DNA of 64,000 bases, from positions 1 through 64,000 of the forward strand of contig CAMDQC010000005.1 of assembly GCA_945905735.1 (NCBI GenBank), given 5' to 3'. This document shows positions 3,201-22,221 of this stretch, one piece after another. The stretch is from Prosthecobacter debontii (GTDB taxonomy: Bacteria > Verrucomicrobiota > Verrucomicrobiia > Chthoniobacterales > Chthoniobacteraceae). Each line of letters starts with the position of its first letter. Position 1 is the first letter of the stretch. The notes beneath the pieces are model-generated. The model was not told the origin of the DNA. It did no database searches and saw only the letters and a list, made by a program, of their open reading frames with translations. Position numbers and translations under genes: made by a program.

Positions 3201-4010
3201 CGGCGAAAAGATGCGCTGCTGCTCGCCAGCGGGCATCCGCCCGAAGAGCCCGATGACCTCGTAGCCCGCGCCGAGCGAGCCTTCGAGAATCTCCCGCGTC
3301 TCCTTGATGTCGCGCTCCGTGGGCATAAATACGAGCACGTCGCCGAAGTCCGATTCGATGAGCGCATTCTCCACCGCCTGCACCGCCGCATCCACATAAT
3401 GAATGTCCTCGCCGTCCGCCACCGCGGGTTCGTAGCGCACTTCGACGGGGAACATGCGCCCCGACACTTCGATGATCGGCGCACCGCCGAACGCTTCGGA
3501 AAACGCCGTCGTATCCAGCGTGGCGGAGGCGATGACGAGCTTCAGCTCAGGCCGCTTTTTCAAAAGGCCGCGCAAGTAGCCGAGGAGAAAATCAATGTTC
3601 AGCGAACGCTCGTGCGCTTCGTCCAGCATGAGCGCCGTGTAGCTGCGCAGCATCGGGTCCGACTGGATTTCCGCCAGCAGGATGCCGTCCGTCATGAACT
3701 TGATTTTGGTATCGCGCCCCGTGTCGTCGTTGAAGCGCATCTTGCACCCGACCTCGCGCCCCCAAGTGACTTGCAGCTCCTCCGCGACGCGCTTGGACAC
3801 GCTCATCGCCGCGACGCGACGCGGCTGAGTGCAGCCGATTTTCCCGCGCTCCGCCGTCCCTGCTTCGAGCAGCATCTTGGGAATCTGCGTCGTCTTCCCC
3901 GAGCCCGTCTCCCCCGCGATGATGAGCACCTGATGCTCGCGAATCGCCGCGATGATCTCCGCACGACGGAGGGAAACCGGGAGGTCTTCGGGATAGCGGA
4001 TGTTCAGCAT
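300..4010 (-). CDS. hrpA: ATP-dependent RNA helicase HrpA (DEAH family)
   Basis: A 1236-residue DEAH-box RNA helicase, near the family's usual length of about 1300. Visible motifs: Walker A GETGSGKT at 33-40, DEAH at 130-133, SAT at 162-164 and motif VI QRCGRAGR at 327-334. The winged-helix/ratchet and OB regions follow, and the long C-terminal half matches the HrpA-specific extension (DUF3418). Family members remodel RNA or ribosome complexes in the cytoplasm, notably stalled or collided ribosomes in E. coli. The ATG at 4010 is the first possible start because a TAG stop lies immediately before it in frame. A GGAG about 11 bases upstream could serve as ribosome binding site and lies inside the remains of a vapC gene. 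The opposite strand carries a very long open frame, which is a composition shadow. Confidence 0.95.
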   Translation of the reverse strand: MLNIRYPEDLPVSLRRAEIIAAIREHQVLIIAGETGSGKTTQIPKMLLEAGTAERGKIGCTQPRRVAAMSVSKRVAEELQVTWGREVGCKMRFNDDTGRDTKIKFMTDGILLAEIQSDPMLRSYTALMLDEAHERSLNIDFLLGYLRGLLKKRPELKLVIASATLDTTAFSEAFGGAPIIEVSGRMFPVEVRYEPAVADGEDIHYVDAAVQAVENALIESDFGDVLVFMPTERDIKETREILEGSLGAGYEVIGLFGRMPAGEQQRIFSPGAKRRVIVATNIAETSLTLPRIRFVIDAGLSRISRYNPRTRTKRLPVEPVSQSSANQRCGRAGRIQAGTCIRLYSQEEYDARPPFTQPEIQRANLAEVILRMKAFRLGEIETFPFINPPHAAAISAGYTLLHELGAIDDTNALTPLGQELARLPVDPTLGRMLLQARIEGVLPELLIIAAGLSVPDPRERPEEQKEAAAAAHRAFADVDSDFLTLLHIWNEAPNPEGRGGGNANRRFCKANFLSISRMREWRDIHWQLADVIEDRNPKEPKDYYAAMHRSVLAGLLGQVAQRTEKNTYKAGGNRIVTLFPGSNLYERFEKKRRTPEEKKLPQPPWIVAGEIVETSQLFARTVAGIHPEWVLEVGPHLCSHRYSDPHWSAKAQRVLCIERVLIHGLEIMRNLIDYGRINMEEATELFIRGALVGEEAHIPLRFFAENAKLREKLANALTRVRSRRAHDLEESLFLFYADRIKAVSSVHDLNKLVRERIVREPDFLIATENDLVGDHDTTFDKTLFPDKVSLGNTVLPVVYAFSPGEENDGVTVRVPLPAAAQLTSGQIQWMVPGLREEQIAVLLRALPKSVRKPLMPLEPKIAEVAGAFTPGRGEFLVELAAFLSRNYRVPVQASDWPPNSLPAHLQPRVEVIDHKDKTLAAGRELAAVQSAVDGHDLHTKSWNAAVAKWEQTGLAVWSFGDLPESIVVEQIADVPLLAFPGIEAAEKSVNVRLFRKREDAAAASVRGVRRLAELVLATDLARLKKDLAGFAKHIPTAPKQAVNFQAALSAMSAKLAPTVAFVTAEVLQTSAFANLLAHTLTQPAHPLTAARFTALVETARRDLPRLTYQLGEWTRQLLALRQAVLASAKRYVGMEQDVQRILPPDFLARTPYPQVAHLQRYLKAVQIRAERAALSPAKDAEKAKQISPFADWEKRVPAANRDAFRWMLEEFRVSLFAQELGTAQPASAQRLRELGG

Positions 4011-4060
4011 CTATCCAGCAGCTCCGAGATGACATTTGTATCGAGCAAATATCCTTTCAC
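4004..4060 (-). pseudogene. Truncated VapC-type PIN toxin (first 18 codons only)
   Basis: Reading from the GTG at 4058-4060 on the complement gives VKGYLLDTNVISELLDRC and then TGA. This is the N-terminal strand of a VapC/PIN ribonuclease, with the first catalytic Asp in LLDTNV. The start overlaps the antitoxin stop as GTGA, the usual vapBC coupling. The frame ends after 18 residues where the hrpA sequence begins: the hrpA ATG lies inside the last codons, one frame away. The other acidic PIN residues and the rest of the domain (about 110 residues) are missing, so no active toxin can be made. A deletion between vapC and hrpA is the simplest explanation. Confidence 0.75.
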
Positions 4061-4272
4061 AGCGGCTCCACATCTCGCGGCATCTCGCGCAGTCTCGCAA
4101 AGTCCGCATCAGTCCCCACGTCTGGGATTTCAAGGAGCAGCCCCTTCAAATCCGGGAACGAGGTATCTCCCGACTCAGACTCCAGCTTTTCCGCGAGAAA
4201 GTCATAGACCTCCCGCTTCTCCTGAAACGCCAATTTCTCAATGGCCGATTCTATTTCCAATACAGTGCTCAT
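4057..4272 (-). CDS. Orphan VapB-like antitoxin
   Basis: A 71-residue acidic protein beginning MSTVLEIESAIEKL, with a predicted helical N-terminal half and a C-terminal tail rich in Asp, Glu and Pro. Size and layout fit small DUF2281/RelB-like antitoxins paired with PIN toxins. The start at 4272 is preferred over an upstream in-frame ATG at 4308 because antitoxins of this type begin close to this motif. Its stop overlaps a GTG that opens a truncated vapC, which supports the antitoxin call. With the toxin broken it is an orphan; it might still bind DNA or neutralise a related toxin elsewhere. A specific antitoxin family is not certain from sequence alone. Confidence 0.65.
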   Translation of the reverse strand: MSTVLEIESAIEKLAFQEKREVYDFLAEKLESESGDTSFPDLKGLLLEIPDVGTDADFARLREMPRDVEPL

Positions 4273-4325
4273 ACGCGAAAAGGTGCCCGATAGAGTCGAG
4301 AGCGTCAACCTACGGACTGAACGGC

Positions 4326-4694
4326 CTACTTCGCCTCGATGAAATCCACGACCATCGGCTCTTCGAGATGCGGCTTCAGCACTTCGACGAATGCGACGTG
4401 CGCGGGATGGACGAGGTAGGCGTCGCGGTCGGCGGCGTTCTTGAAGGTGACGATCCAGCAGTGGGTGAAGCCCTTCGAGAGACCTTCGGGGCTGGAGTTC
4501 GTGCCGTGCAGGAACGTGAGGATGAATGGGATTTTCTCCTTCAGCCCGGCGAAGGCGGTGACGACTTTTTCGACCTCCTCCTTCTTGGCATCCGCTTTGA
4601 ACTTGAAGTGGACGACATGAAAGACGGGACCGTCTGCGGCGATTGTGGACATAGAAAATGCGATGAGTGCGGCGAGGGCGAAGAGATATTTCAT
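4326..4694 (-). CDS. Secreted Dabb (stress-responsive alpha/beta barrel) protein
   Basis: A 122-residue protein. MKYLFALAALIAFSMSTIAA at 1-20 is a Sec signal peptide, so the start is placed at 4694 rather than at an upstream in-frame ATG. The rest is a Dabb domain: the HVVHFKFK strand, a helix with KKEEVEKVVTAFAGL, then SKGFTHCWIVTFKNAADRDAYLVHP, the family's typical signature. Dabb proteins are small dimeric barrels of mostly unknown activity. A second, cytoplasmic Dabb protein is encoded at 42.6 kb and shares the GFTH and AA-RDAYL-HPAH features. It follows the acetylesterase-like gene on the same strand with a 70-base gap, so co-transcription is likely. Confidence 0.8.
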   Translation of the reverse strand: MKYLFALAALIAFSMSTIAADGPVFHVVHFKFKADAKKEEVEKVVTAFAGLKEKIPFILTFLHGTNSSPEGLSKGFTHCWIVTFKNAADRDAYLVHPAHVAFVEVLKPHLEEPMVVDFIEAK

Positions 4695-4764
4695 ACTGCG
4701 CGCTTGGATGCCCGGCGCGGTGGGGAAACTCAATCGCATTCTCGAAAGGTGGCCCCGGCGAAGC

Positions 4765-7719
4765 TTATTGCTTGGGCACGATGGGCACGTTGCAGAACGT
4801 CAGCGCGGCGAGGCCGTTCGTGCCGGTGAGGAGCGTATCTTGGTTCCACTCGATTTCTTTCAAGTAGGTGATCTTCGTCGCGGTGCTTGGCTCTTTGAGT
4901 TTCAGCGTGAGCACGGGTCCGGCGACGCTGCCGCTGGCGATTTTGCCTTTCTCGCCGTCGAGGTAGAACTGGCTGGCGAGCTTGTCGTCCCATGCTACGG
5001 GCTGGTCGAAAGTCAGCGTGATCGTGTCTTTTCCCGCGTAGGTTGCGGATCGCAGGTTTGGCGCGGTGAGCGGGCCGGCGGGCACTTTGCCGTAGTTGTC
5101 GCGCTCGATGAGCGGCTGGACCATGCGTGCGAATTCCGCCCATCCGACGAGCGGGAAATGGCATCCACCGGGAGGTCGCACACCGAGCGTGGAAAGGATG
5201 CTCATTTTGGAAAAGAGCGTCGGGAGTGTGCGCTGCTTCTCGCGGAGCATATCGCCCGACCCGAGGCGTCCACCCATGCTGCATGAGTTTGGCCAGATTT
5301 GGAAAACGTAGTAGTGCTGCACGTTCGGGAAGTCGGTCTTCCACCCCGCGGCCATCTCGATGAAGAATGGATGATACGTCTCCCAGCCGTAGCCGCCTGT
5401 GGGGCCGTCGGAGCCCTGGTCGTTTTCGCCCTGATGCCACAGGATGCTGCGGATTCCGTGCGTGAGCCTTGCCTGCTGCACGCGCCAGAGCATGCGGCCG
5501 TAAATGCTTGTGAGGTCGGTAGGGTTCGCAGCGTCGCGTTGATGGACGTCGATGCGCGTTCCGCCGACTGCGGCGTTGATCATGAAGATGGGCATCTTTT
5601 GGCTTTCGAGCAGGCGCTTTGCGAGTTCCATGCCCCACCAGCCGAGCTCGGCCTTCTCGCCCTTCTGCGCTTTCCAAACAGGCAGCACCCAGCCGTTGCC
5701 GGTGTTGTCCTTCGCGTTTTGCGAAGGTCGCGCGTAGCTGCGAATCCACTCGTTAGTCTCCGGCGGTGATTTTTCGCCGGTGTCGGTCGCGAGCGCGTTG
5801 GATTGGCCGTCGATGATGTAGGCGTCGCCGCAGACAAGATTGCTCACGGTGTTCAGCACGGTGTCTTTGCCGGTGCCGAACTCGACTTTATATTTGATGA
5901 GCCCCGGCTTGAGCTTTGCGGACAGCGCGTAGGACTTGTCGGCGGCGGGCTTTGCGGTCGCAGTGCTCACGAGTTTGTCGTCGGCGTAGAGTTTCAAAAA
6001 GACTGAGTCGGCAGCGGTGTCGAGTGTGCCGTTGTAAAAAAGCGTGCCCTCGTTTTTGTCGTCGCGGGCGTAGAACTGGCCTTCTTCGGGCTTCTCGTCT
6101 TTTGCCGGAACCCGAGCGACCCACGCGTCGCTCTTCGGCTCGGTCACAGCGATTTCGACCGACCGCGAAACGGGCGCGCCGCCATTGCTCATGGTCGCGG
6201 TGACGGTGAGCTTGCCGCTGTTTTGCGCGCGCTTGAGGATGAGTTTGCCCGGCGAGACCTCCTTGATAACCGCGAAAGGTGCGACACTCCACTCCGTCTT
6301 CAACTCGCCCGCATCTTTAGGCGGCATCCAGCTAAGGTTCGCCACCTGCCCCACTTCGATTGTTGCCCGTCCATCCCATGCCGCCGGAGCAATCAGCGTG
6401 TAGTTCGGATCAGAAATCGTCTCCTTGACCGAAATCGCGATGTCCTTCGTTTTCACGCCGTCGGGATAAATCGCGCGGCATTGCAGAGTCACAGCGGTAT
6501 TGCCCGTCACGCGTCCGGCGTCGAACGCGTAAGAAAAGCGATCCACCGCCACCACGCGGTCCGCGCCGGCGCTTTTCAAAACCCAGTAAATCTTCTGCGC
6601 TCCGCCGGCCTGCACAGTAAACGTCGCGCTTTTTCCCTCGGCGACAGTCGCCGACGCGGACGAAACCGTAAACGCATTTCCCGGCTGCACGATCGGCCCG
6701 ACGAGCGTTTGCTGCGCCTTCTGGTTTTCGTGTTGCAGCTTCACCCAATCCGCAGAGCGCGTCACTTTCGAGATCCGCACTTCATCGAGGTCGCCGACGA
6801 AATCGTAGTTGTTGTACCAGCCTCCGATGTAGAGCCGCGCGGGAGTCTTAAGGGCCAGCGGAGCGTTTGGCGTCTTTGAGGTGTTGCTGAGTTCGCCGTT
6901 CACGTAGATTCGCGACTCGCCCTTCTCGTACGTGTGGAAGATGTGAACCCACTCGTTCATCGGCAACCGCCCGACGCTCGCGACGTCCGCGCCGGAAAAG
7001 TAGCACTCCATTTTCACATGCGGCGGGCTCTGGAAATGCATCACCACTTTCCCCTGCCCGTGCTCATTGCCCCAAGCGAGTGTGCGACCGTTCGACTTCT
7101 CCGCGCGCAGCCACGCCTCGGTGCTGTGCGGAGCGGAACCGACCGGATAGTTCTCAATCTTCTCGCCGCAAAAAATCCCCTGCTTTCCTCCAAGATGACG
7201 CGCTGGTCCGACCATGCCCGCCGTCGCTGTCGTGCCGACATCCTTCGTCTGCACCGAGCCCACTTCATCCGAAACGCCGTCGCCCATGTGAAAGACACTC
7301 AGATAGCCGTTCGATTCGCCGAACACCGCCTTGCCATCCGACTCGCTCGCTGCGTCCGGCTTGCCCCAATGCACCTTCAGCTCCTGTCGCGCATTCCCTT
7401 TAATCGTCGGCATGCGCACCCAAATGCTCGCCGCCCCCGCAGCCGCGTCCCATTGCTCGATTTGAAATGCCAGCGGCTTGCCATCGGCGGAAAAACGCAC
7501 GTCATCGCCGTTTGGTTTCGCCGCTGCGAAGTTGAAGAAGTCCTTGTGCAAACGGACGAGCACCGGGAAGCCCTCCTCGCTCGCCGCCGCCGGGATATTC
7601 GCACCATCGGGAGTCGTGTTTAGAAAAAGCGAACCAGTGTTTTTCCAGGCAGGATATTGTGCAAATGTGGACGCAGCAGTTGCTACGAGGAGCGACATGG
7701 AAATCAGAGAATACTTCAT
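4765..7719 (-). CDS. Secreted sialate O-acetylesterase-like protein with DUF2341 and LamG regions
   Basis: A 984-residue secreted protein. Start at 7719 gives a signal peptide MKYSLISMSLLVATAASTFA; longer in-frame starts would hide it. Order: DUF2341-like segment (about 30-130), concanavalin/LamG-like jelly roll (about 145-330, with NEWVHIFHTY and RIYVNGELS), Ig-like linker regions (about 345-600), then a SASA-type SGNH esterase domain (about 630-880). The esterase shows GDAYIIDGQSNA (nucleophile Ser at about 640) and LWHQGEND (about 760-767). Such enzymes remove O-acetyl groups from sialic acids or plant and algal polysaccharides. The lectin-like front half suggests binding of a polymer. Substrate is not deducible. 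It is divergent from ribH. Confidence 0.85.
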   Translation of the reverse strand: MKYSLISMSLLVATAASTFAQYPAWKNTGSLFLNTTPDGANIPAAASEEGFPVLVRLHKDFFNFAAAKPNGDDVRFSADGKPLAFQIEQWDAAAGAASIWVRMPTIKGNARQELKVHWGKPDAASESDGKAVFGESNGYLSVFHMGDGVSDEVGSVQTKDVGTTATAGMVGPARHLGGKQGIFCGEKIENYPVGSAPHSTEAWLRAEKSNGRTLAWGNEHGQGKVVMHFQSPPHVKMECYFSGADVASVGRLPMNEWVHIFHTYEKGESRIYVNGELSNTSKTPNAPLALKTPARLYIGGWYNNYDFVGDLDEVRISKVTRSADWVKLQHENQKAQQTLVGPIVQPGNAFTVSSASATVAEGKSATFTVQAGGAQKIYWVLKSAGADRVVAVDRFSYAFDAGRVTGNTAVTLQCRAIYPDGVKTKDIAISVKETISDPNYTLIAPAAWDGRATIEVGQVANLSWMPPKDAGELKTEWSVAPFAVIKEVSPGKLILKRAQNSGKLTVTATMSNGGAPVSRSVEIAVTEPKSDAWVARVPAKDEKPEEGQFYARDDKNEGTLFYNGTLDTAADSVFLKLYADDKLVSTATAKPAADKSYALSAKLKPGLIKYKVEFGTGKDTVLNTVSNLVCGDAYIIDGQSNALATDTGEKSPPETNEWIRSYARPSQNAKDNTGNGWVLPVWKAQKGEKAELGWWGMELAKRLLESQKMPIFMINAAVGGTRIDVHQRDAANPTDLTSIYGRMLWRVQQARLTHGIRSILWHQGENDQGSDGPTGGYGWETYHPFFIEMAAGWKTDFPNVQHYYVFQIWPNSCSMGGRLGSGDMLREKQRTLPTLFSKMSILSTLGVRPPGGCHFPLVGWAEFARMVQPLIERDNYGKVPAGPLTAPNLRSATYAGKDTITLTFDQPVAWDDKLASQFYLDGEKGKIASGSVAGPVLTLKLKEPSTATKITYLKEIEWNQDTLLTGTNGLAALTFCNVPIVPKQ

Positions 7720-7843
7720 AGAGAACGGCGGTTCTACAGAGCGACCGGGAGGCGTGGCGAGGCTGATGAATCGAAGCGCTCCACTCGAAAATCTAGCAGG
7801 GCTCTTGCGCAAACGCGTGTCGCCGCTACTCTCCGCGCCTCTC

Positions 7844-8335
7844 ATGTCAAAAATACAGCCAAGCAGACCTGCGAAACTGACCGGCCAACGCCGCTTCGGA
7901 ATCGTCGCGAGCCTTTATAATTCTGAATACGTCGAGGGCCTCGTGGAGGCAGCTCGCAAGGAGCTCAAGGCGCTCGCACCCAAGGCACAGGTCGATCTCG
8001 TTTACGTGCCGGGCTCGTATGAAATCCCGCTCGGCGTGAAGGCTTACATAGACTCGGCAGCGGATGTGGATGCCGTGCTCGCTTTTGGCCTCCTCTGGGA
8101 TGGTGAGACGATGCACGCGGGCCTCATCGCAACGGCGGTGACGAACTCGCTGCTCGATATTTCGCTGAACTACGACACGCCCGTCCTCCATGAAGTTCTC
8201 GTGGTGAAAACGGCAGAGCAAGCGAAGGAGCGATGCCTCGGCACGAAGATCAATCGCGGCACAGAAGCCGCCCGCGCCGCTGTCCGCATGGTGCAGACGA
8301 TGGACAGCCTGCCGTCTAACGACATCCCATTTTAA
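7844..8335 (+). CDS. ribH: 6,7-dimethyl-8-ribityllumazine synthase
   Basis: A 163-residue protein of normal length for lumazine synthase, the penultimate step of riboflavin synthesis, which joins a ribityl-aminouracil and a dihydroxybutanone phosphate. Family features: RFGIVASLYN near the N-terminus, VPGSYEIPL (substrate loop), VLAFGLLWDGETMH (the usual G-x-x-I-x-G-x-T-x-H is modified but Gly, Glu, Thr and His are kept), and ALL-type oligomer contacts near NRGTEAARAAV. The start at 7844 gives the standard N-terminus; the longer open frame upstream is non-coding. The stop overlaps the nusB ATG by one base, so ribH-nusB-ftsY forms an operon. No FMN riboswitch was recognised upstream. Confidence 0.95.
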   Translation: MSKIQPSRPAKLTGQRRFGIVASLYNSEYVEGLVEAARKELKALAPKAQVDLVYVPGSYEIPLGVKAYIDSAADVDAVLAFGLLWDGETMHAGLIATAVTNSLLDISLNYDTPVLHEVLVVKTAEQAKERCLGTKINRGTEAARAAVRMVQTMDSLPSNDIPF

Positions 8336-8799
8336 TGAGTAAACGACGCGAGGGCCGCGAAGCAGCGGTGCAATATCTCTACCAACTCGACATCCACGGC
8401 AACCCGGCTGCGGATCTGCGAGCGGACTTCTGGCTCGTCCGCGAGGCCACGGCGGCAGTGAAGGAGTTCACCGAGAGCCTCATCGCGGGCTTCCTCACCA
8501 AACGGGAGGAAGTGGACGTGACTCTGAAACGCCACCTCCGCAACTTTGAAGTCGGGCGGCTGAACACCGTGGACCGCAACATCCTGCGGCTGGCGATTTA
8601 TGAGATGTTTCATCGCCTAGAGACGCCGCCCATCGTGGCGATCAATGAAGCAATCGACCTCGCGAAAAAGTTCGGTGGCGAAGACTCCGGCAAGTTCGTG
8701 AATGGCGTGCTGGACCAAGTGAAGCGCGAACTCACGCGTCCTCTCCGTGATGCCGTGACGCCCTACACGAAAGGGCCGAAACCCGCCGCGAAACCGTAA
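8335..8799 (+). CDS. nusB: Transcription antitermination factor NusB
   Basis: A 154-residue protein with the all-helical NusB fold: REGREAAVQYLYQLDI near the start, then VGRLNTVDRNILRLAIYEM and PPIVAINEAIDLAKKFGGEDSGKFVNGVLD. The last stretch is the best conserved part of the family. NusB binds boxA RNA together with ribosomal protein S10 and promotes antitermination on rRNA operons. It overlaps the ribH stop by one base (TAATG), so the two are translationally coupled, the common ribH-nusB order in bacteria. The next gene, ftsY, begins three bases after its stop. Confidence 0.95.
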   Translation: MSKRREGREAAVQYLYQLDIHGNPAADLRADFWLVREATAAVKEFTESLIAGFLTKREEVDVTLKRHLRNFEVGRLNTVDRNILRLAIYEMFHRLETPPIVAINEAIDLAKKFGGEDSGKFVNGVLDQVKRELTRPLRDAVTPYTKGPKPAAKP

Positions 8800-8802
8800 G
8801 TT

Positions 8803-9654
8803 ATGGCGTTCGGTTTTCTCAAAAATATCTGGCAGAAATTCACCGGAAAACCGGTGGATTGGGACGAGTTAGAGGAGAGCCTGATCCGCGCCGATCTCGG
8901 CCTGCCGATGACAACGCGCATTCTCAAAACCCTGCAAGACAGTGGCGAAAATCTGACCGCTGAGACGGTGGTGAAAGTCGCCCGCGAAGAGATCATTAAA
9001 ATCCTTCCGACCGAGCAGTGGATGCTCCGCCCATTTGCAAACAAGCCGAAAGTCATCCTCGTCGTCGGCGTCAACGGCACGGGGAAAACGACCTCCACGG
9101 CGAAGATGGCCGCCCTTTTGAAAAAGCGCGGGCACAGCGTCCTCCTCGTCGCAGCGGACACGTTCCGCGCTGCGGCCATCGAGCAACTGGGCATCTGGGC
9201 GGACCGCATCGGCGTGGAAATTGTGAAGGGCCAATACAACGGCGACCCCGCCGCGCTTTGCTACGACGCCTACCAAAAAGCGGAGAAGCAGGGCATCGAG
9301 TTCATCCTCTGTGATACCGCAGGCCGCTTGCACACGAAGCACAATTTGATGAACGAACTCGGCAAGGTGAAGCGCGTCCTGCAACGCGCGGACCCCTCCG
9401 CGCCGCACGAGAGTTTGCTCGTCGTAGATGCCACCACCGGCGCAAACGCGCTGGCGCAAGCGCGCGAGTTCAAAGCAGCCGCCGAGCTGACAGGCATCGT
9501 CTGCACGAAGCTCGACGGCAGCGGGAAGGGTGGCGTCATCGTCGCCATCCAAGACGAGCTGAAACTCCCCACACGCTTCATCGGCACAGGCGAGAAGGCG
9601 GAGGACTTCGCCTTCTTCGACAGCCGCGAGTTCGTGGAGCGGATGGTCGAGTAG
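8803..9654 (+). CDS. ftsY: Signal recognition particle receptor FtsY
   Basis: A 283-residue SRP-GTPase consisting almost only of the NG domains; the acidic A domain of E. coli FtsY is absent. The helical N domain spans about 1-75. GTPase motifs: G1 GVNGTGKTT at 89-97, DTFRAAA at about 119-125, G3 DTAGR at 171-175 and G4 TKLDGSGKGG from about 235. It docks ribosome-SRP complexes at the inner membrane for co-translational insertion. The C-terminal signature that is usually DLxPFD reads DFAFFDSREFV here, a mild departure. Membrane binding probably uses the N-terminal helix MAFGFLKNIWQKF. It is last in the ribH-nusB-ftsY operon. Confidence 0.95.
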   Translation: MAFGFLKNIWQKFTGKPVDWDELEESLIRADLGLPMTTRILKTLQDSGENLTAETVVKVAREEIIKILPTEQWMLRPFANKPKVILVVGVNGTGKTTSTAKMAALLKKRGHSVLLVAADTFRAAAIEQLGIWADRIGVEIVKGQYNGDPAALCYDAYQKAEKQGIEFILCDTAGRLHTKHNLMNELGKVKRVLQRADPSAPHESLLVVDATTGANALAQAREFKAAAELTGIVCTKLDGSGKGGVIVAIQDELKLPTRFIGTGEKAEDFAFFDSREFVERMVE

Positions 9655-9656
9655 CT

Positions 9657-10133
9657 TTACTTCAGAGCTTCCAGAACCGCCGCCGCATGGTCGCCGGGCT
9701 TCACTTTGCGCAGTAATGCGTGGAGCGTCCCGTCTGGCCCGATGATGAACGTCGTCCGCTCCGTGCCCATGTATTTTCTCCCGTAGAGGCTCTTCTCCAC
9801 CCACACGCCGAAAGCCTCCACCATCGCGTGCCCCTCATCCACCAGCAGCGGAAACGGCAGCGAATGCTTCGCGATGAACTTCGCGTGGCTCTTCGCAGGA
9901 TCGATGCTCACGCCGAAGAGCACGCATTTTTCCGACACCTCGCTCCACGCATCGCGTAGCCCACACGCCTGCATCGTGCAGCCGGGCGTGTCGTCTTTCG
10001 GGTAAAAATAGAGCACCACATTCTGTCCCGCGAATTCTCCGAGCGAGACCTCCTTTCCCGCGTCACCATACGTCCCGCCCACGGCGAGCGTGCGAAACGC
10101 GGGAGCCTTCATACCGGGTTCGAGAGTCGTCAT
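9657..10133 (-). CDS. bcp: Thioredoxin-dependent peroxiredoxin (Bcp/PrxQ)
   Basis: A 158-residue thiol peroxidase reducing hydrogen peroxide and organic peroxides. The motif [18 protein letters not shown] carries the peroxidatic Cys52 and a resolving Cys57 five residues later, the alpha-2 type arrangement of PrxQ. The downstream [28 protein letters not shown] and the Arg in [13 protein letters not shown] are also standard. Its ATG overlaps the stop of the upstream SPFH gene by four bases (ATGA), so it is probably translated with it. It ends two bases from the convergent ftsY stop. Confidence 0.93.
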
Positions 10134-10993
10134 GCTTTCGGCTGGCCCGCCGACATGACGGGCTGGACGTGGTGCTCGGAGACGAGCGCCAGCATCAGAT
10201 TGTTTACCATCGTCGCGCGGCCATGCTCATCCAGTTTCACCACACCATCTTTTTCCAGCTTAGTGAGGGCCATCTCCACCATCCCCACCGCGCCTTCGAC
10301 GATCATTTGCCGTGCAGCGATGACCGCCTGCGCTTGCTGGCGCCGCAGCATCGCTTGTGCAATCTCCGGGCTGTATGCGAGGTGCGAGAGACTTGCCTCC
10401 GTCACCCGAATGCCCGCGATGGAGACCCGCTTTTGAATCTCCTCGCACAAGTTCTTCGACACTTCCACCGGGTGACTGCGGAGCGCCACTTCGTCAGCGG
10501 TGTGCGGCTCGTAGGGGTAATGAGTGGCGACCTGCCGCAGCGCCGTCTCGCACTGGATGGGCATGAACGCCTCATAGTCATCCACCTCGAACACCGCATC
10601 CGCCGGGCGCTCCACCTGCCACACCACCACTGCCGCGATCTCCACGGGGTTGCCCTGCGCATCATTCACCTTGAGCTGGGGGCTCTGGAAATTGCGCATC
10701 CGCAGCGTCACGCGCCGCCGATTTGCCAGCGGATTGATGAGGGAGAAACCGTTGCGCGTCACCGTGCCCACGTAGTTCCCGAGGAACGTCAAAACGAGCG
10801 ACTCATTCGGCGAAATGACCGCGCACGAGCGCATCGACATAATGAACACGAACACCGCCAAGAAAATCAAACCTGGGCGAAACTCCGCTCCCCCCATCGC
10901 GCAATAGAGCAGCCACAGCACGACCCCAAACGGCACAAACAAAACCGCGCCCGGCAACGCGAGCGACGCACGATCTTTCGGAGAAGTTTCCAT
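10130..10993 (-). CDS. SPFH/band 7 domain membrane protein
   Basis: A 287-residue membrane protein. Start placed at 10993 ([10 protein letters not shown]), followed by two hydrophobic segments: [22 protein letters not shown] and an adjacent [11 protein letters not shown] stretch. An SPFH (stomatin/prohibitin/flotillin/HflK) domain follows: [43 protein letters not shown], the VVWQVERP strand, then helical [27 protein letters not shown] and [15 protein letters not shown]. Relatives form ring-like scaffolds that organise membrane microdomains or control proteases. The coupled bcp gene suggests a link with oxidative damage, which is inference. Confidence 0.85.
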
Positions 10994-15080: not shown

Positions 15081-16982
15081 ATGCGTATTCTTTCTCTGCT
15101 GTTCGCCTTCGCTCTTCCGGTCTTCGGGGCGGAGTATTTTGTGAGCACGACCGGGCTGGACGCCAATGGAGGATCGTCGGGTGCGCCCTGGAGGACGATC
15201 CAGAAAGCTGCGAATACCGTCGTGCCGGGCGATACGGTGAGCATCCTCGCCGGGACGTATTCCGAGCGGGTGACGATCTCGGGGAAGCGGGCGACTGCCG
15301 GACAGCCGATCGTGTTTCGCACGCGGCCTGGCGACGTGATGGCGGCGATCGATCAGACGGGCGTGACGCCGCCGAGCGGGACTAGCGCGGTGTTGACGAT
15401 CGCGAATTGCGATTATGTAACGGTGCAGAATCTGGAGGTCCGCAACTACAAGACGACTGCTGATACGAAGACGCCAATCGGCATTTTGGTGAACGGGGAC
15501 GGGTCGGGCGTGAAGCTGCTGGGCTGCAAGGTCCACGACATCTGGCAGAGCAACACGACGCTGAACAATTTCAATGCGAACGGGTTCGGAATCCTCGTCT
15601 ATGGGGATGCGACGCTGCCGATTGCGGACTTCGTGCTCGATGGCTGCGAGGTCTCGGCGCTGCGAACGGGTGCGAGTGAATCGGTGGTGCTGAATGGAAA
15701 CGTCACGGGCTTTTCCGTGACGAACAACCTCGTTCACGATTGCAACAATATCGGGATCGATTTCATCGGCTTCGAAGGCACTGCGCCAACTGTGGCGCTC
15801 GATCAGGCCCGCAACGGTGTGTGCTCGGGCAATACGGTCTGGAACATCGATTCGAAGTTTAATCCCGCGTACGGCGGGAACTTCGGAGCGGGCGGTGGCA
15901 ACGCGACGCGCTCGGCACCGGGGCTGTATGTGGACGGCGGGCGGGACATCGTCTTGGAAAGAAACCACGTCTATTCGAGCAACTTCGCTGTGTCGCTCGG
16001 CAGCGAGCATCTCGGAAAAGTCACGAGCAACGTAACCGTCCGCAACAACTTGCTCCACCACTGCCACGTCGGCGGAATCGTGCTGGGCGGCTCGGACAAT
16101 CTCCAAAACGGTGGGGCGACGGGCTGCACGATCACGAACAACACGCTGTACGAAAACGACACGACCGGAACCGGCGGCGGGCAGGTGAGCATCCAGAATT
16201 TCGTCACGGCGACGACGATTCGGCAGAACATTATGGTGTGCAACGCATCGACCGCGCAGTTCGTGTTGAAGGACAATACGACGGGTTCTTTTTCCGCGAA
16301 TGCGATCGACTGGAATCTCTACAGCGGCGCGGCATCGAATGCGGTGGAGTTTATCTGGAACAACAGTGCGAAGGCCACGTTTACGGCGTGGAAGACGGCG
16401 TCGGCGCAGGATGCGAACTCGTTTTTTGCCGCGAGCGCTGGGCTCGTCGGGCCGGCTTTTACGGCGGCATCTCCGGCGGCGAACTTCGGTCTGCTGTCAG
16501 CGTCGCTGGCGGTAAATGCCGGGGAGCCAGCGTTCGCTGCGCAGTCGGCCGAACGGGATTTTGGTGGGCAGAGTCGTGTGGCTTCGGCGCGTGTGGATAT
16601 CGGGGCAGACGAGTTCCTTTCCGCGTGGCAGGCTTGGCGCGACCAGTATTTCGCGCTGCCCGACGGCGGGGCGGGGGCAAATGCGGGCGATGATACCGAT
16701 GGAGACGGTGTGGGGAATCTGCTGGAGTTCGCGCTCGGCGGAAACCCGTTGGCACCGGATGCGATGCGGCTGCCGACGCTCTCGCCTGTGGGAGCGGCGT
16801 TTCGTTTCCAATACCGGAAGGACGGCAGCGGGCTCTCGTATAGCGTGGAGAAGACGAGTGCGCTGGCGAGCCCTTGGAGTGCGGCTGTCGAGGCGGAGCA
16901 GACCGATGGCGCAGGGAACTACTGGCGTGAGTTCACGGGGCCGTCGCCGCTTTTCGTCCGCTTGCGAGTCGCGCTGCCGTAG
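15081..16982 (+). CDS. Secreted right-handed parallel beta-helix protein
   Basis: A 633-residue secreted protein. Start at 15081 gives a signal peptide MRILSLLFAFALPVFGA. Then comes a DUF1565-like entry, YFVSTTGLDANGGSSGAPWRTIQKAANTVVPGD, and a run of irregular beta-helix coils with Asn-rich turns (NNLVHDCNNIGIDF, VRNNLLHHCHVGGIVLGG, ITNNTLYENDTTG). The C-terminal 110 residues carry DDTDGDGVGNLLEFALGGNP, a Ca-binding-like Asp loop, and a small beta domain. Beta-helix proteins of this type are polysaccharide lyases or adhesins; no catalytic residues can be assigned. Its tail resembles that of the convergent CotH protein, seven bases away. Confidence 0.8.
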   Translation: MRILSLLFAFALPVFGAEYFVSTTGLDANGGSSGAPWRTIQKAANTVVPGDTVSILAGTYSERVTISGKRATAGQPIVFRTRPGDVMAAIDQTGVTPPSGTSAVLTIANCDYVTVQNLEVRNYKTTADTKTPIGILVNGDGSGVKLLGCKVHDIWQSNTTLNNFNANGFGILVYGDATLPIADFVLDGCEVSALRTGASESVVLNGNVTGFSVTNNLVHDCNNIGIDFIGFEGTAPTVALDQARNGVCSGNTVWNIDSKFNPAYGGNFGAGGGNATRSAPGLYVDGGRDIVLERNHVYSSNFAVSLGSEHLGKVTSNVTVRNNLLHHCHVGGIVLGGSDNLQNGGATGCTITNNTLYENDTTGTGGGQVSIQNFVTATTIRQNIMVCNASTAQFVLKDNTTGSFSANAIDWNLYSGAASNAVEFIWNNSAKATFTAWKTASAQDANSFFAASAGLVGPAFTAASPAANFGLLSASLAVNAGEPAFAAQSAERDFGGQSRVASARVDIGADEFLSAWQAWRDQYFALPDGGAGANAGDDTDGDGVGNLLEFALGGNPLAPDAMRLPTLSPVGAAFRFQYRKDGSGLSYSVEKTSALASPWSAAVEAEQTDGAGNYWREFTGPSPLFVRLRVALP

Positions 16983-16989
16983 TTTGCGT

Positions 16990-19900
16990 CTATTTCTGCG
17001 TCACGCGGAGGCGGTAGAAGATGCACGGCGCGTTCGCGGGGACGCGATACGAGCGGGTCTGCTGGCTTCCGACTAGGGTCATCGGGTAGGCGTCCACTTG
17101 CGTCCACGTTTGCAAGTCGGCGGAGCATTCGAGCACGTAGTCGATGTCGGGGAACAGCGTGTTTACGCTGTAGCTTACCAAGCCTTGGCCGAGCGCGGGC
17201 CATGGGGTGAGCGATGGCCCGTTGGGATCAAGTCCGAGGGCGTATTCGATGAGGTTGTTGATTCCGTCGCCGTCCTCGTCGCCGTTGCCGCCGGAGACGC
17301 CGTAGGTAGTGGCCCATGTGGCGAAGCGGTTGCCGGGGGCGAATCCGCCGGGCGATGCACCCGCGGCCATCCAGTTGATGAAGTCGTTGCCGTAGTCGTG
17401 CTCGGAGATTTTTGTGAGCGATGGGCCGCTGCCGTCGGGGGTGGTGGGCCATGGGGCGGTGTCGTCGAAGTTCACGCGATCTTGGCGGACATACTGGATG
17501 ACGTTGAACGCATCGACTGCGCCGGGACGGTCGAGCTGGAGGCTTTCGCCGCCGTTCGAGAGCCCGCCCGTGCCCCACTCGAAGACCTTGGTCCCGACGG
17601 GCATGAGTGCGCCGAAGCTGTTGTTGAAAAGGGTGAGGTTCTTCGTGATGACGACGCGCTCGCCGGGCTGCATGGTGAGCGGCGAGGCGGCTGGGAACTC
17701 GAAGTCGATGCCGTCGCTGATGCGCCAGGCTTTTGCTTTCGCCGCGTCGTAAAGCGTGACGGGCGCAGCGCTGACGTTGAGCAGTTCGAGATACTCGGCG
17801 TCACCGGGGCCGCTTGGGTTATACATGATCTCGGAGATGACGATGGGGCCGACGCGCGGGCCGCTGTTTTGGGCATTGGGCGTCGGGGTTTTCATGGCGA
17901 CGAAATTATACGAGTCGGTGCTCGGTTTGTAATAAGCGCCGAGCGTTTCGCCTTCGGTGCTCGGGCCGACGTCTTCTTTGCTTTGGTAGTCGGTGAGTTG
18001 GTCGTTCACGGCGGAGCTGACGTAGAGGGTTTCGCCGATGTCGCTGAGGGCGAATGCGGTGACCTTGTTCACGTCGATGCTCGCCGCACCGAAGTTCGTG
18101 CCCTCGTAGAAAGTGACGTAGCCGCCTGCGGGGATGATCGTGCCGACGGGGATGCGGTATTTTTGAAGGTCCGCGCCGCTGTCGCTAAGGAACCAGCCGC
18201 CGACATTGATGGATGAGGTGGTGCGGTTGTGGAGCTCGATCCAGTCGGTCGCAGCACCAGAGTTGGCGAGGACTTCGTTGATGACGACGGTCTCGCCGAT
18301 GGTGAACGGGTAGTCGGCGGCATTGTAAATGTACTGCGCCCCGATATCGACGCGCGTGGTGTCCGGGTCGAGCGCGTGGGCCGGGTCGCCGTTGTCGATG
18401 GCGGGCGAGGTAGAGCGGAGTTGGTAGTTCAGCACGACGGGATCGACGAACTGCGGATCGAGCAAGAGGTTGCCGGTGCCGGGCAGCGCGGCGGTATCGC
18501 TGAGGCAGTAGTTTGCCGTGAGTGTGGAGAAGGCGTCGTAGCTCACGGGCGTAATGGTGGACTTGGAAAGGATGGTATTCGTGATGGTCGCATTGCCGCC
18601 GCCGTCGCCGAAATTTTTCTCGTAAACGGAGACGCTTGTTTCGCAGTTCACGAATGTATTTTGGTCGATGAGCACGGTGGAGCCCGCGTCTTTCACGCCC
18701 ACGCCGAGCACGCAGCCGACGACCATGTTTTTGCGTAGCGTGACGCTGGAGCCTTGGCCGATGGAGAAGCCTTTGTCGGAGTTGAAATAGATGAGGTTCC
18801 GCTGGATGAGCGTGTTCACGCATGCTTCGCCGAGGTCGATGCCGTCGCTGTTGCTGCCTTGGAACCGGTAGATTTTGCAGTCTTCGATGGTGCCGTTGAT
18901 CACGCCGTCGAAGTCGATGGCGTCGGTGTCCGGCGCGTTGTTTCCGGGGAAGACGCAGCGCTGGACGAGTGCGGTTCCCTTTTTGATGTGGAGGCCGTCG
19001 CCCGTGTAGGGAATGTGGAAGCGGCAGTCGCGCAGGATGGCGGTGCCGTTGTAATTGTAGAACGTGGAGTCGCACTCGGCGATGTCGAGGAAGTCGGCGG
19101 TGATGGTCGCGTTCCGACCCATGACGGTGTTGATGTAGAGCGCGGGGTTTGCACCATTGGTGCCGTGGCGGACGTTCATGTGTGTGAGGGTCGATGCGCC
19201 GCTCGGGAACTCAAAACTCAAGCCGCCCCAGCGCTCTCCGTTGCGTCCGACGAGGTTTACTTTTTGCGCGGCGGTGCCGTTCACATTCAGCACGCCGAGC
19301 ACGCGGAAGTGGCGGCGCGTGGTCATCTGAATGGTGACGCCCGCATCCACGTTGAGCGTGATGCCCGCAGGCACGATAAGGTCGTCGTTCACGACGTAAG
19401 GCGAGCCAGCGAGTGTGAGCGTCGTGTCGCTCGCGAGTGTGCCGCCGATGGGCGTTTCTGCCACGGGCACGAAGGTCGCGGTGATGCTCGCTGCGCCGGT
19501 GATTGTCGCCGTCGTGCTCGCTCCGCCGGTCGCGCCGGTCCAACTGCTGAACGCGTATCCGGGCGCGGGTTTCGCGGTGAGCGTGAATGCGATATTCGGG
19601 AACATTTTGAACGTCCCTGGCTCCACGGGAACGCCCTGCACGAGCACTTTCCCGTGCGCGGCATTGGCGATGAGCGTGAGGTTTACCGCGGTGCCGACGC
19701 CGAGTTGCGTGGCGACTTCGGCGGCGAAGTTTGCAGTCCGCTGCACGGCGTAATCTTTGATGTTTTGGATGTTCGCATTTCGCGTCGCGACGGTCGTGCC
19801 ATCCGGTGCCCAGCGCGTGACGTGGCGCGGGATGGACGCGGAGACTTCCGCATCCATCGCCGAGACGATGGCGTCCACTCGCGATGCCTTGAACGTGCCC

Positions 19901-22221
19901 GCGACATGCGCGGCGTAGCGTTGCGCGAGGCGTTGTTTGAACGGGACGTTTGTCTTCAGCCGCACGAGCACATCTTCGCTGGCGAGCATGGCGGACAGGA
20001 TGCCCGTGAGCGTGCTGGTGGAGAACGTGCGGTCCATATCCGTGAGGAACCAGCGGAACTTTCCGCCGGGCGTTTTCGGTTTCCAAAACTCGCGATTGTG
20101 AAACCAGCTCGTGTTGTTGCCGTAGGATTCGGCGATGACGAAATCCATGAAGCTATCAACGTCGATCTTCGATTCCACGTAGTCCCAGTTCGCTTGCACG
20201 GTGAGGTCCGCCGTATTGATGAAAGCCATGAGCGCGAGCCAGTCTGTGTTCGTTCCTTTATCCACGCCGAGCGTCACGGATGAGCTCGTGATGTGGCCGT
20301 AGAGGAGGTGGTCGATTTTGTCCGAAGGCAGATGATACGTCTGCGCAAACCACATGTCGTCCCACCGCTGGCGGATGTCGTGGATGCCGTAGTAATCACC
20401 GTTGATGAACACGACGCTCGGCATGTAAAGCGCAGTGTCCACATTCATAAATCCGGTCACCAATCGTGGGTAGATACAGTCGCGCAACATGTCCTTGTTC
20501 CAGTTATCGCCGCCGTCGCGCAGCGCGAAGCCCGTGTGCAGCGCGATGCCGCTGTTTGGGAATACGTCGTAAGCCACATCGTCGTTTCCATACTTCCCGC
20601 GAATCGCGATGTTCAGCGCCTTTTGCGGATGCACCCAGTTGTTCTCTCCGCCAATGCGGATGCCGCATCCCGCAGAAAAAGCAAGCCCGCCGCCCGGTGC
20701 GAAATACTCGATATTTCCCGGTGCATCTTTGCCTTTGTAAACGTCCTTCAGCCCGTAGGTGCCGCTCACCGTCTCGTGCTCATTTTTGTAAATGCCGATC
20801 GTGTCTCCAAACATCGTCTCCGGGTCCGCGACGACGGAAATGTAAGGCAGGTTTTCCTGCGTCTCGCCCCGGAAATAAGTACGCGTGACAATCGGCCCCG
20901 GCGCTTTTCCTGTCTCGAAAACCTGCGCCCGCACGACCGTCGTCGCGGTGATGCTCAGCGGCGCGGAGTAAACCGGCGACGTGAGGCGAGGGTTGCTGCC
21001 GTCCAGCGTGTAATGAATCGCACCACTCGGCGCAGACATCGTCACCGTCTGGTCCGTCGCGTAAACCCCGCTCGCTGGAGACACCGAGACATTCGTCCCA
21101 TCCACGCGCAGATTGTTCACGAGCGGCGTCGTATTTTCCGCCCCCGGAGTCGGCACCGCGAACTGCCGCAGGGTCGTCGGCGTCGTGGCATCGCGTCCGA
21201 AAGAAACGTCCGTGACTTGCTGCGGATAGCCGACGGTATCCACAAGCGTCGAGCCCGTATGCTGTGAAGCGGTGAGGCCGAGATCGAAGCTGATGTCGGC
21301 GTTGTTTGCCTCAAATTGATGCAACTCCACCGCGATCACGTTGTCGCCCGCCACGAGGGCGGACGCCGGGACTTGGAAAACCCAGAACGTCTGCTCCGTG
21401 GAAGCCGTCAGATTTGTCAGCGCCTGCGTCTTATAGTCCACGTCCGTCGTCGGCAGATTCCGCCGCGCGACTTCCGTGCCGTTGAGATAAATCACCGCGC
21501 CGTCGTCGAGCACCGCGCGAATGGTCAGGCCGTGATACAGCGCCGGGTCCGCGACGTTGAAGTGATGCCGGAAATACGTGGTGATGTATTTGTTGCTCGC
21601 ATCCGGTCCGTAGCTCACCACCGTGGCTTGCGTATCGCCGTAGCCGAGTTCCGCCGGACCCGTGGCCCACGACGAGTCATCGAAACTCCGCGCTCTCCAC
21701 TGCGTGCTCTGGTCCGTGCCGTTATCGAGATACTTCCACACTGCCACCGTCGCCGGAGCGACGGGTGCCGGAATTGAAGCGTTGATGAGCGTCACCGTGC
21801 TCAATCCGGTCGCATGAGTGAGCGTCAGCGTCTCGCCTAGCGAATCGAGGCTGAAGTTTGTGTGATACCGCTCCGTCACGAAGTTTTTCCACGGCCAGTA
21901 GCCTCGCGGATGTGTCTCCCCCGGCCCCGCGTCGTGGCCATCTGCCATGAAAAGCAGGAAGCCGTTCGCCGGGATCGTGGCACCAGTGGGAACCTGCCAT
22001 TTGAAGGGATTTCCTGAGTCGTCGCTGATAAAGTACCCGTCCAGACTCACCGGAGCGCCCGTGGTATTCTTGAGCTCAAACCAATCCGGGTAATCCTCGA
22101 AGTCCGTGATGTCCGGGAAAGCGCGCGTGTTCGAAGCCATCACTTCGTTGATGATGACCTGTGATTGGGACTGTGCGACGCCGAGCAATAGCGCGGTGAA
22201 GAGTGTGCTGATGAATTTCAT
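16990..22221 (-). CDS. Giant secreted lamin-tail / CotH / beta-helix protein
   Basis: A 1743-residue secreted protein; start at 22221 gives a signal peptide MKFISTLFTALLLGVAQSQS. Approximate order: lamin-tail domain (19-130), galactose-binding-like module (205-320), chitobiase C-terminal-like module (375-440, HYTLDGSNP), CotH kinase-like domain (455-830, with FGDTIGIYKN, RGKYGNDD and FLTDMDRTF), an InlB-like beta repeat (870-945), a right-handed beta-helix (1000-1290), two further lamin-tail domains (1310-1590), and a tail with DEDGDGINNLIEYALGLDP. CotH proteins can phosphorylate proteins or act as host-binding surface proteins; kinase activity here is inference. The domain mix points to an extracellular adhesive or polymer-processing protein. 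Confidence 0.85.
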   Translation of the reverse strand: MKFISTLFTALLLGVAQSQSQVIINEVMASNTRAFPDITDFEDYPDWFELKNTTGAPVSLDGYFISDDSGNPFKWQVPTGATIPANGFLLFMADGHDAGPGETHPRGYWPWKNFVTERYHTNFSLDSLGETLTLTHATGLSTVTLINASIPAPVAPATVAVWKYLDNGTDQSTQWRARSFDDSSWATGPAELGYGDTQATVVSYGPDASNKYITTYFRHHFNVADPALYHGLTIRAVLDDGAVIYLNGTEVARRNLPTTDVDYKTQALTNLTASTEQTFWVFQVPASALVAGDNVIAVELHQFEANNADISFDLGLTASQHTGSTLVDTVGYPQQVTDVSFGRDATTPTTLRQFAVPTPGAENTTPLVNNLRVDGTNVSVSPASGVYATDQTVTMSAPSGAIHYTLDGSNPRLTSPVYSAPLSITATTVVRAQVFETGKAPGPIVTRTYFRGETQENLPYISVVADPETMFGDTIGIYKNEHETVSGTYGLKDVYKGKDAPGNIEYFAPGGGLAFSAGCGIRIGGENNWVHPQKALNIAIRGKYGNDDVAYDVFPNSGIALHTGFALRDGGDNWNKDMLRDCIYPRLVTGFMNVDTALYMPSVVFINGDYYGIHDIRQRWDDMWFAQTYHLPSDKIDHLLYGHITSSSVTLGVDKGTNTDWLALMAFINTADLTVQANWDYVESKIDVDSFMDFVIAESYGNNTSWFHNREFWKPKTPGGKFRWFLTDMDRTFSTSTLTGILSAMLASEDVLVRLKTNVPFKQRLAQRYAAHVAGTFKASRVDAIVSAMDAEVSASIPRHVTRWAPDGTTVATRNANIQNIKDYAVQRTANFAAEVATQLGVGTAVNLTLIANAAHGKVLVQGVPVEPGTFKMFPNIAFTLTAKPAPGYAFSSWTGATGGASTTATITGAASITATFVPVAETPIGGTLASDTTLTLAGSPYVVNDDLIVPAGITLNVDAGVTIQMTTRRHFRVLGVLNVNGTAAQKVNLVGRNGERWGGLSFEFPSGASTLTHMNVRHGTNGANPALYINTVMGRNATITADFLDIAECDSTFYNYNGTAILRDCRFHIPYTGDGLHIKKGTALVQRCVFPGNNAPDTDAIDFDGVINGTIEDCKIYRFQGSNSDGIDLGEACVNTLIQRNLIYFNSDKGFSIGQGSSVTLRKNMVVGCVLGVGVKDAGSTVLIDQNTFVNCETSVSVYEKNFGDGGGNATITNTILSKSTITPVSYDAFSTLTANYCLSDTAALPGTGNLLLDPQFVDPVVLNYQLRSTSPAIDNGDPAHALDPDTTRVDIGAQYIYNAADYPFTIGETVVINEVLANSGAATDWIELHNRTTSSINVGGWFLSDSGADLQKYRIPVGTIIPAGGYVTFYEGTNFGAASIDVNKVTAFALSDIGETLYVSSAVNDQLTDYQSKEDVGPSTEGETLGAYYKPSTDSYNFVAMKTPTPNAQNSGPRVGPIVISEIMYNPSGPGDAEYLELLNVSAAPVTLYDAAKAKAWRISDGIDFEFPAASPLTMQPGERVVITKNLTLFNNSFGALMPVGTKVFEWGTGGLSNGGESLQLDRPGAVDAFNVIQYVRQDRVNFDDTAPWPTTPDGSGPSLTKISEHDYGNDFINWMAAGASPGGFAPGNRFATWATTYGVSGGNGDEDGDGINNLIEYALGLDPNGPSLTPWPALGQGLVSYSVNTLFPDIDYVLECSADLQTWTQVDAYPMTLVGSQQTRSYRVPANAPCIFYRLRVTQK

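Follow-up and report, generated by a model that had tools for sequence, protein, structure and literature searches.

A recurrent C-terminal domain of secreted Verrucomicrobiota proteins, probably a folded sorting or anchoring signal

By what means Verrucomicrobiota export enzymes and adhesins of very large size across the outer membrane, or place them on it, is, to our knowledge, largely open. In Bacteroidota, the T9SS C-terminal domain (Por secretion tail) is a beta-domain which ends many Sec-exported proteins, dozens per genome. PEP-CTERM is described, in the available text of PMC1569441, as a motif of ~24 residues with a membrane helix and a basic end. GlyGly-CTERM/rhombosortase was published on the same kind of evidence as that given below, and the accessible part of PMC3237569, by Haft and Varghese, describes GlyGly-CTERM families with alternative tails. 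Unlike the tail studied here, GlyGly-CTERM is presented there as a motif, a membrane helix and a basic end, found mostly in Proteobacteria and with a proposed cognate protease.

We studied two genes in a stretch of 64,000 nucleotides (the window) from Prosthecobacter debontii, whose genome is 5.19 Mb. As originally predicted, genes A (15081-16982, plus strand) and B (16990-22221, minus strand) lie tail to tail, with stop codons seven bases apart. The features are listed below, with their basis in brackets.

15081-16982, plus strand: gene A, secreted DUF1565-like right-handed beta-helix protein of 633 aa (ORF)
16464-16616, plus strand: choice-of-anchor Q domain (NF041518), adjoining tail A on its upstream side (body residues 462-512)
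16623-16979, plus strand: tail A, C-terminal module with helix, EF-type loop and beta-sandwich (profile match and AF2)
16692-16727, plus strand: EF-hand-type loop of tail A, DTDGDGVGNLLE (sequence)
16776-16979, plus strand: predicted Ig/Fn3-like beta-sandwich of tail A (AF2 strands 52-117)
16983-16989, no strand: seven bases separating the stop codons of genes A and B (sequence)
16990-22221, minus strand: gene B, secreted LTD/CotH/CHB_HEX_C/InlB-repeat/beta-helix protein of 1743 aa (ORF and Pfam)
16993-17340, minus strand: tail B, C-terminal module (profile match and AF2)
16996-17196, minus strand: predicted Ig/Fn3-like beta-sandwich of tail B (AF2 strands 49-115)
17245-17280, minus strand: EF-hand-type loop of tail B, DEDGDGINNLIE (sequence)

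The sole Pfam match of the gene A protein, which has a hydrophobic N-terminus (MRILSLLFAFALPVFGAEY), was a sub-threshold DUF1565 (19.3 bits, cut-off 20.3). NF041518 scored 26.6 bits when the body was scanned alone (cut-off 25) and 24.1 bits, just under the cut-off, in the full protein. The gene B protein, whose last residues are FYRLRVTQK, matched LTD (138.3 bits, three stretches), CotH (81.5 bits), CHB_HEX_C_1 (60.7 bits), Beta_helix (37.4 bits) and Flg_new_2 (34.3 bits). Pfam and NCBIfam gave no match to tail A or tail B, and the whole tail domain is without a model in either library. A direct BLASTP comparison of the two tails was weak (E=0.041 over 24 residues), and the pair alone was therefore insufficient to prove a common domain. 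However, a profile of 63 further tails from the P. debontii genome, from which both window tails were excluded, scored tail B at 73.2 bits and tail A at 68.0 bits, while none of 1000 shuffled versions scored above 6.5 bits, confirming that A and B share a C-terminal module. The DNA pattern NLxE[YF]ALG, with one mismatch allowed, was matched 16 times in the P. debontii genome, and its reversed control gave 0 matches. The module is ~105-120 residues long (~110). Its predicted extent, an Asp-rich loop followed by a beta domain, was borne out for these two parts but not for the start, as a helix begins ~15-20 residues before the loop.

AF2 models of tails A and B gave the order helix, Asp loop, short helix and beta-sandwich, with the last strand closing the protein. 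Both tails were confidently modelled as one unit (mean pLDDT 93.8 and pTM 0.84 for tail A; 90.0 and 0.79 for tail B). The sandwich is predicted to be Ig/Fn3-like, a widespread fold that includes carbohydrate-binding modules. The best structural matches by VIA-align had Z 7.7, rmsd 2.4 and 69 aligned positions for the sandwich of tail A, and Z 7.3, rmsd 2.5 and 70 aligned for that of tail B. Z values up to 7.7 are at a common level, and Foldseek returned nothing at E<=0.001 for tail A or tail B; we therefore propose no particular structural relative. When the profile was compared with solved structures, five sequences were obtained, none below E=0.16 and mostly EF-hand proteins. L140 (48 sequences) and L142 (best 60 of 75) also gave matches to solved structures, but upstream of the tail, and these were set aside. 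A pilus link via the Amuc_1099 family, which matched 10 of the 63 tails, was dropped since the match, in the members with positions inspected, is confined to the loop.

Like the T9SS C-terminal domain, the tail is predicted to be a folded beta-domain, comparable in size, with which many unrelated exported proteins end; unlike it, the tail has an EF-type loop and is found sometimes at the mature N-terminus. Any of the 63 tails was matched (E<=0.1) by 16 families of Pfam and 15 of NCBIfam, and none of these was a T9SS C-terminal-domain model, of the kind that we presume both libraries contain. PEP-CTERM is likewise C-terminal and many-to-one, and it occurs on exported proteins with homologous bodies in nearly the same genomes. 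However, the tail is a folded domain of ~110 residues without a membrane helix, PEP-CTERM models were absent among the families matching the 63 tails, and no Pro-Glu-Pro/helix/basic end was seen in the alignment. As it shows no transmembrane segment, the tail by itself does not belong to the known type of exosortase substrate.

The loop follows the pattern DxDxDGxxxxxE, with the EF-hand spacing D1, D3, D5, G6 and E12. Canonical spacing was found in 63 of the 75 distinct strong C-terminal matches of P. debontii, in 20/29 tails of the other phylum-scan genomes and in 47/49 named-locus tails. A looser loop pattern was present in 63 of 77 P. debontii tails at E<1e-5; by eye, the remaining 14 comprised five near-canonical loops and nine tails which had no clear loop but were matched over the beta-domain. 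Such a loop could also belong to a Ca2+-dependent, dockerin-like plug for a cohesin-like surface receptor, with no part in export. Dockerins may sit at either end of a protein, and this module, too, is terminal at either end. However, a dockerin has two loops and lacks a beta-sandwich, whereas the alignment showed one loop per tail and not the two of dockerin type I, Dockerin_1 matched only 1/63 tails (E=0.018), and the nine tails without a clear loop are also at odds with such a plug; we regard it as improbable. TSP3/dockerin-type calcium loops share the DxDGDG sequence, and TSP3_bac (PF18884) matched 10/63 tails at E<=0.1 (best E=2.8e-5) but neither window protein. Unlike those loops, that of the tail is usually single and joined to a beta-sandwich, which also occurs without a clear loop. 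At the other end of the module, 142 of the 153 C-terminal tails carry [FYW]-x-[RHQ] at a distance of 4-8 residues from the stop, and proline is the last residue in 77 of the 153.

Tail B as a single query identified 69 places (E<=1) in the P. debontii genome, including two inside the window, and the 63-row profile gave at least 88 matches at E<=0.01, with 150 of 179 candidates scored. The profile rows had been selected as C-terminal (matches within 60 residues of the stop), while position played no part in the choice of the 59 stretches that we fetched to cover the 67 places lying beyond the window. The grown profile comprised 65 closed reading frames, with all matches ending 0-5 residues before the stop. 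At E<1e-3, the fetched set also contained an internal match in an open frame (L101), one with an open end (L079) and a second, partial match inside L068. We then defined a strong match as one at E<1e-6 that covers 66 or more model positions, and counted the duplicate locus L113 (identical to L105) once. Of 157 distinct strong matches, 153 were C-terminal, ending within 12 residues of the stop: 75 in P. debontii (2 not), 29/29 in the other phylum-scan genomes and 49 at named loci (2 not). Of the four exceptions, three had the module at the mature N-terminus and one was an interrupted tail. Inspection by eye placed the module just after the signal peptide in L101 (3-2051, minus strand), L204 (2297-4300, plus strand) and L172 (5812-6876, plus strand), the reading frames of L101 and L204 being cut at the far end; in L178 (1-2253, plus strand), the tail is interrupted by an inserted domain, yet FVRLRVTE stands at the stop. 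Loop-only matches were also internal, in L092 and L173. Thus the expectation that the module is C-terminal and not internal stood for the great majority of copies but not for the three N-terminal ones or the loop-only matches. The copies at the mature N-terminus fit poorly with a signal that needs a free C-terminus. We also observed adjacent genes that each carry a tail, three in L156 and two in L089.

To describe the proteins bearing the tail, we scanned 44 of the 62 P. debontii bodies of at least 60 aa, leaving aside the 16 longest and two others. Pfam assigned 41 families to these bodies, with details from 25 of the 41; the commonest were LTD (24), CotH (20), CHB_HEX_C_1 (13) and Laminin_G_3 (7), and single bodies carried GH9, PL8, PL14, subtilase, Endonuclease I, metallophosphatase, heparinase-like and PATR domains. 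Among 25 of 33 NCBIfam families, choice-of-anchor domains were found in six of the 44 bodies, namely X (NF041940) in four, Q (NF041518) in one and GloVer (TIGR03803) in one; the Q case is gene A, where the domain lies just upstream of the tail. We take the choice-of-anchor names to be linked with variable anchors. As the original prediction required, the profile is not limited to beta-helix proteins: its carriers include CotH/LTD, GH9, PL8, PL14, subtilase, Endonuclease I, sialidase and GH18 proteins, among others. A strict signal-peptide pattern was matched by 61/83 long carriers compared with 11/83 internal control stretches, and a lenient one by 77/83 compared with 34/83; a crude count without control gave 49/54. 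Two CotH proteins of P. debontii without the tail (L193, 640-5976, and L195, 512-7942, both minus strand) end in another module, roughly GxFxGSFxxPxTGKxxxFxGxLL...GGxVxLxP, which is possibly a second terminal signal of the lineage.

Several of the bodies are polysaccharide lyases or glycoside hydrolases, and the tail might accordingly be a carbohydrate- or matrix-binding module which keeps enzymes on polysaccharide or exopolysaccharide after secretion, without any sorting. The Ig/Fn3-like fold, weak CBM21 matches (E=5.9e-3) and the three mature-N-terminal copies would suit this function. However, LTD and CotH are found in 24/44 and 20/44 bodies, and there are also protease, nuclease or phosphatase-like ones. 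Furthermore, binding modules are often internal or tandem, whereas the tail is nearly always terminal and, in L188, occupies the position that a sorting signal has on a homologous body. We therefore consider a binding module unlikely, even with the tie between PEP-CTERM proteins and exopolysaccharide that is reported in the available text of PMC1569441.

Exchange with PEP-CTERM on homologous bodies is the best evidence for a sorting role. In L188 (contig JAFLEH010000003.1), two adjacent frames (1999-6339 and 6346-10485) encode PATR-type paralogues that are 48-87% identical per 60-column block up to about column 1200 and 17-23% identical in the next two blocks; the first frame ends in the tail and the second in VPEPSSAWLVLGGSLGLALRRRRER. 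The latter scored 19 bits with TIGR02595, passing its cut-off of 16, and 19.1 bits with PF07589, below its cut-off of 20.7. Similarly, an Opitutia MAG (L168) encodes two tail proteins and one PEP-CTERM-type protein ending in IPEPGTYALFAGFGALGGVLLLRRWRLAKSS, which share a domain of ~250 residues directly before their ends (47-49% identical); this partner scored 17.9 bits with PF07589, below the cut-off of 20.7, and was absent from the TIGR02595 matches. A weaker candidate for exchange is found in P. debontii, where the last body segment of the tail protein L106 is 35-36% identical to those of L218 and L240, which scored 28.7 bits and, just under the cut-off, 20.3 bits with PF07589. At L070/L225 (G000:C10, 49343-53902 and 55398-56108), a PEP-CTERM protein of 237 aa lies near a tail-bearing CotH/LTD protein and is 69.6% identical over 191 aa to its N-terminal region; this is weak evidence for exchange because the common domain lies far from the tail. 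Apparently, the tail can replace the PEP-CTERM address tag. The general marks of a sorting signal given by Haft and colleagues were also found here: C-terminal position, a signal peptide (by pattern), several unrelated families per genome and, in L188 and L168, exchange on homologous bodies with partners below the Pfam PEP-CTERM cut-off.

We surveyed 115 Verrucomicrobiota genomes, evenly drawn, and detected the tail at E<=1e-6 in 57 genomes and 35 of 62 genera, with a highest copy number per genome of at least 40. A scan of Bacteria and Archaea with one genome per species gave at least 47 confirmed loci; of those listed, 46 were titled as members of Verrucomicrobiota, and the odd one of the 47, a Gammaproteobacteria MAG, matched over the loop only. 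In this sample, the tail is restricted to Verrucomicrobiota. In genus g5, which we take to be Akkermansia, it ends a sialidase (L140, G063) and a GH18 chitinase (L142, G021) and, as assigned by eye, sulfatases (L138, G030; L141, G027) and glycosidase-like proteins (L125, G033; L133, G082). Of these six mucin-type enzymes of the putative Akkermansia, L138, L140, L141 and L142 have a degenerate Asp loop. We recognised no description of this tail and found no experiment on the tail itself in the literature covered, which leaves out most subscription papers and bioRxiv preprints; the available portions of PMC11790493 and PMC4960237 do not mention it.

PEP-CTERM (PF07589) was found in 55/57 genomes with the tail and 12/58 without it (Fisher 2.7e-18), and exosortase (PF09721) in 55/57 and 25/58. 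These PEP-CTERM genome counts are rough: according to the text available of PMC1569441, PF07589 in its 2006 form picked up no more than 22% of PEP-CTERM instances, and the Verrucomicrobium set escaped it. When the genomes were collapsed to 33 families, the figures were 21/22 versus 4/11 for PEP-CTERM (p=5e-4) and 22/22 versus 5/11 for exosortase (p=4e-4). Permutation within families gave a weak p=0.036 for PEP-CTERM and a non-significant p=0.099 for exosortase, and ancestry thus accounts for much of the co-occurrence. Copy numbers of tail and PEP-CTERM, which are partly lower bounds, were not correlated (Spearman 0.21, p=0.11). In P. debontii, PEP-CTERM was matched 34 times (E<=0.05) and exosortase once (G000:C52:11789-12526, minus strand). 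That lineage largely explains the co-occurrence would also agree with a tail that only stabilises the ends of long beta-rich proteins and is kept by descent and duplication, and many carriers are indeed large and beta-rich. Nevertheless, enzymes (GH9, PL8, subtilase) also carry the tail, and a mere end cap would hardly be swapped for a transmembrane PEP-CTERM on a 48-87% identical body; we think this very unlikely.

The predicted linked export or sorting gene was sought with exosortase, GspD and SprA profiles and by neighbour clustering, and was not found. None of the three profiled families was specific to the tail in the 115 genomes. A GspD-type secretin was nearly universal (57/57 tail genomes and 54/58 others, 111/115 in all), and 11/57 tail genomes had only a weak GspD (best E above 1e-40), which weakens a T2SS requirement. 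SprA (TIGR04189) was found in 0/115 genomes, and since no control genome gave a match either, this search had no positive control; on this result, with that limit, a T9SS explanation was set aside. Clustering the neighbours of the 47 named loci brought out no recurrent gene: a sulfatase occurred at 5 loci, one further family at 4 and another at 3. Fractionation of A. muciniphila gave higher values for three mucin-enzyme activities in the intracellular fraction, which includes the periplasm, than in the outer-membrane fraction (available text of PMC4960237); the enzymes concerned may or may not carry the tail, but this distribution does not favour outer-membrane attachment.

Taken together, the variety of bodies, the terminal position of 153/157 strong matches and the exchange with PEP-CTERM support the original view of the tail as a sorting- or secretion-type signal rather than a catalytic part, and we consider it probable that the tail is a lineage-specific folded sorting or anchoring domain. 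We read it as functioning like a T9SS-type sorting domain, yet fitting neither the T9SS nor the PEP-CTERM sequence models. In such a mechanism, cargo would exit through Sec, the tail would fold in the periplasm and its loop would take up Ca2+. One common receptor or matrix might then recognise the beta-sandwich and the short fixed C-terminal end, and this putative receptor would carry the cargo to the outer surface or hold it there, as T9SS does in Bacteroidota. The destination of the cargo would be the cell surface or the medium.

More tentatively, and short of an even chance in our estimate, Verrucomicrobiota may possess an unnamed dedicated secretion or surface-attachment route which recognises a terminal domain that is Ig-like and binds Ca2+. 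Such a route, a functional T9SS-equivalent without SprA, would operate beside exosortase/PEP-CTERM and serve a large share of the extracellular enzymes of the phylum, probably including the mucin-degrading ones of Akkermansia-like gut species. Once the tail is named, the predicted extracellular proteins of the phylum could be listed from sequence alone, and the ends of many giant 'hypothetical' proteins would be explained. The presence or absence of the tail would provide a precise pattern for phylogenetic profiling of its partner, and a direct test could be made in a tractable species, Akkermansia-like ones included if the genus assignment holds.
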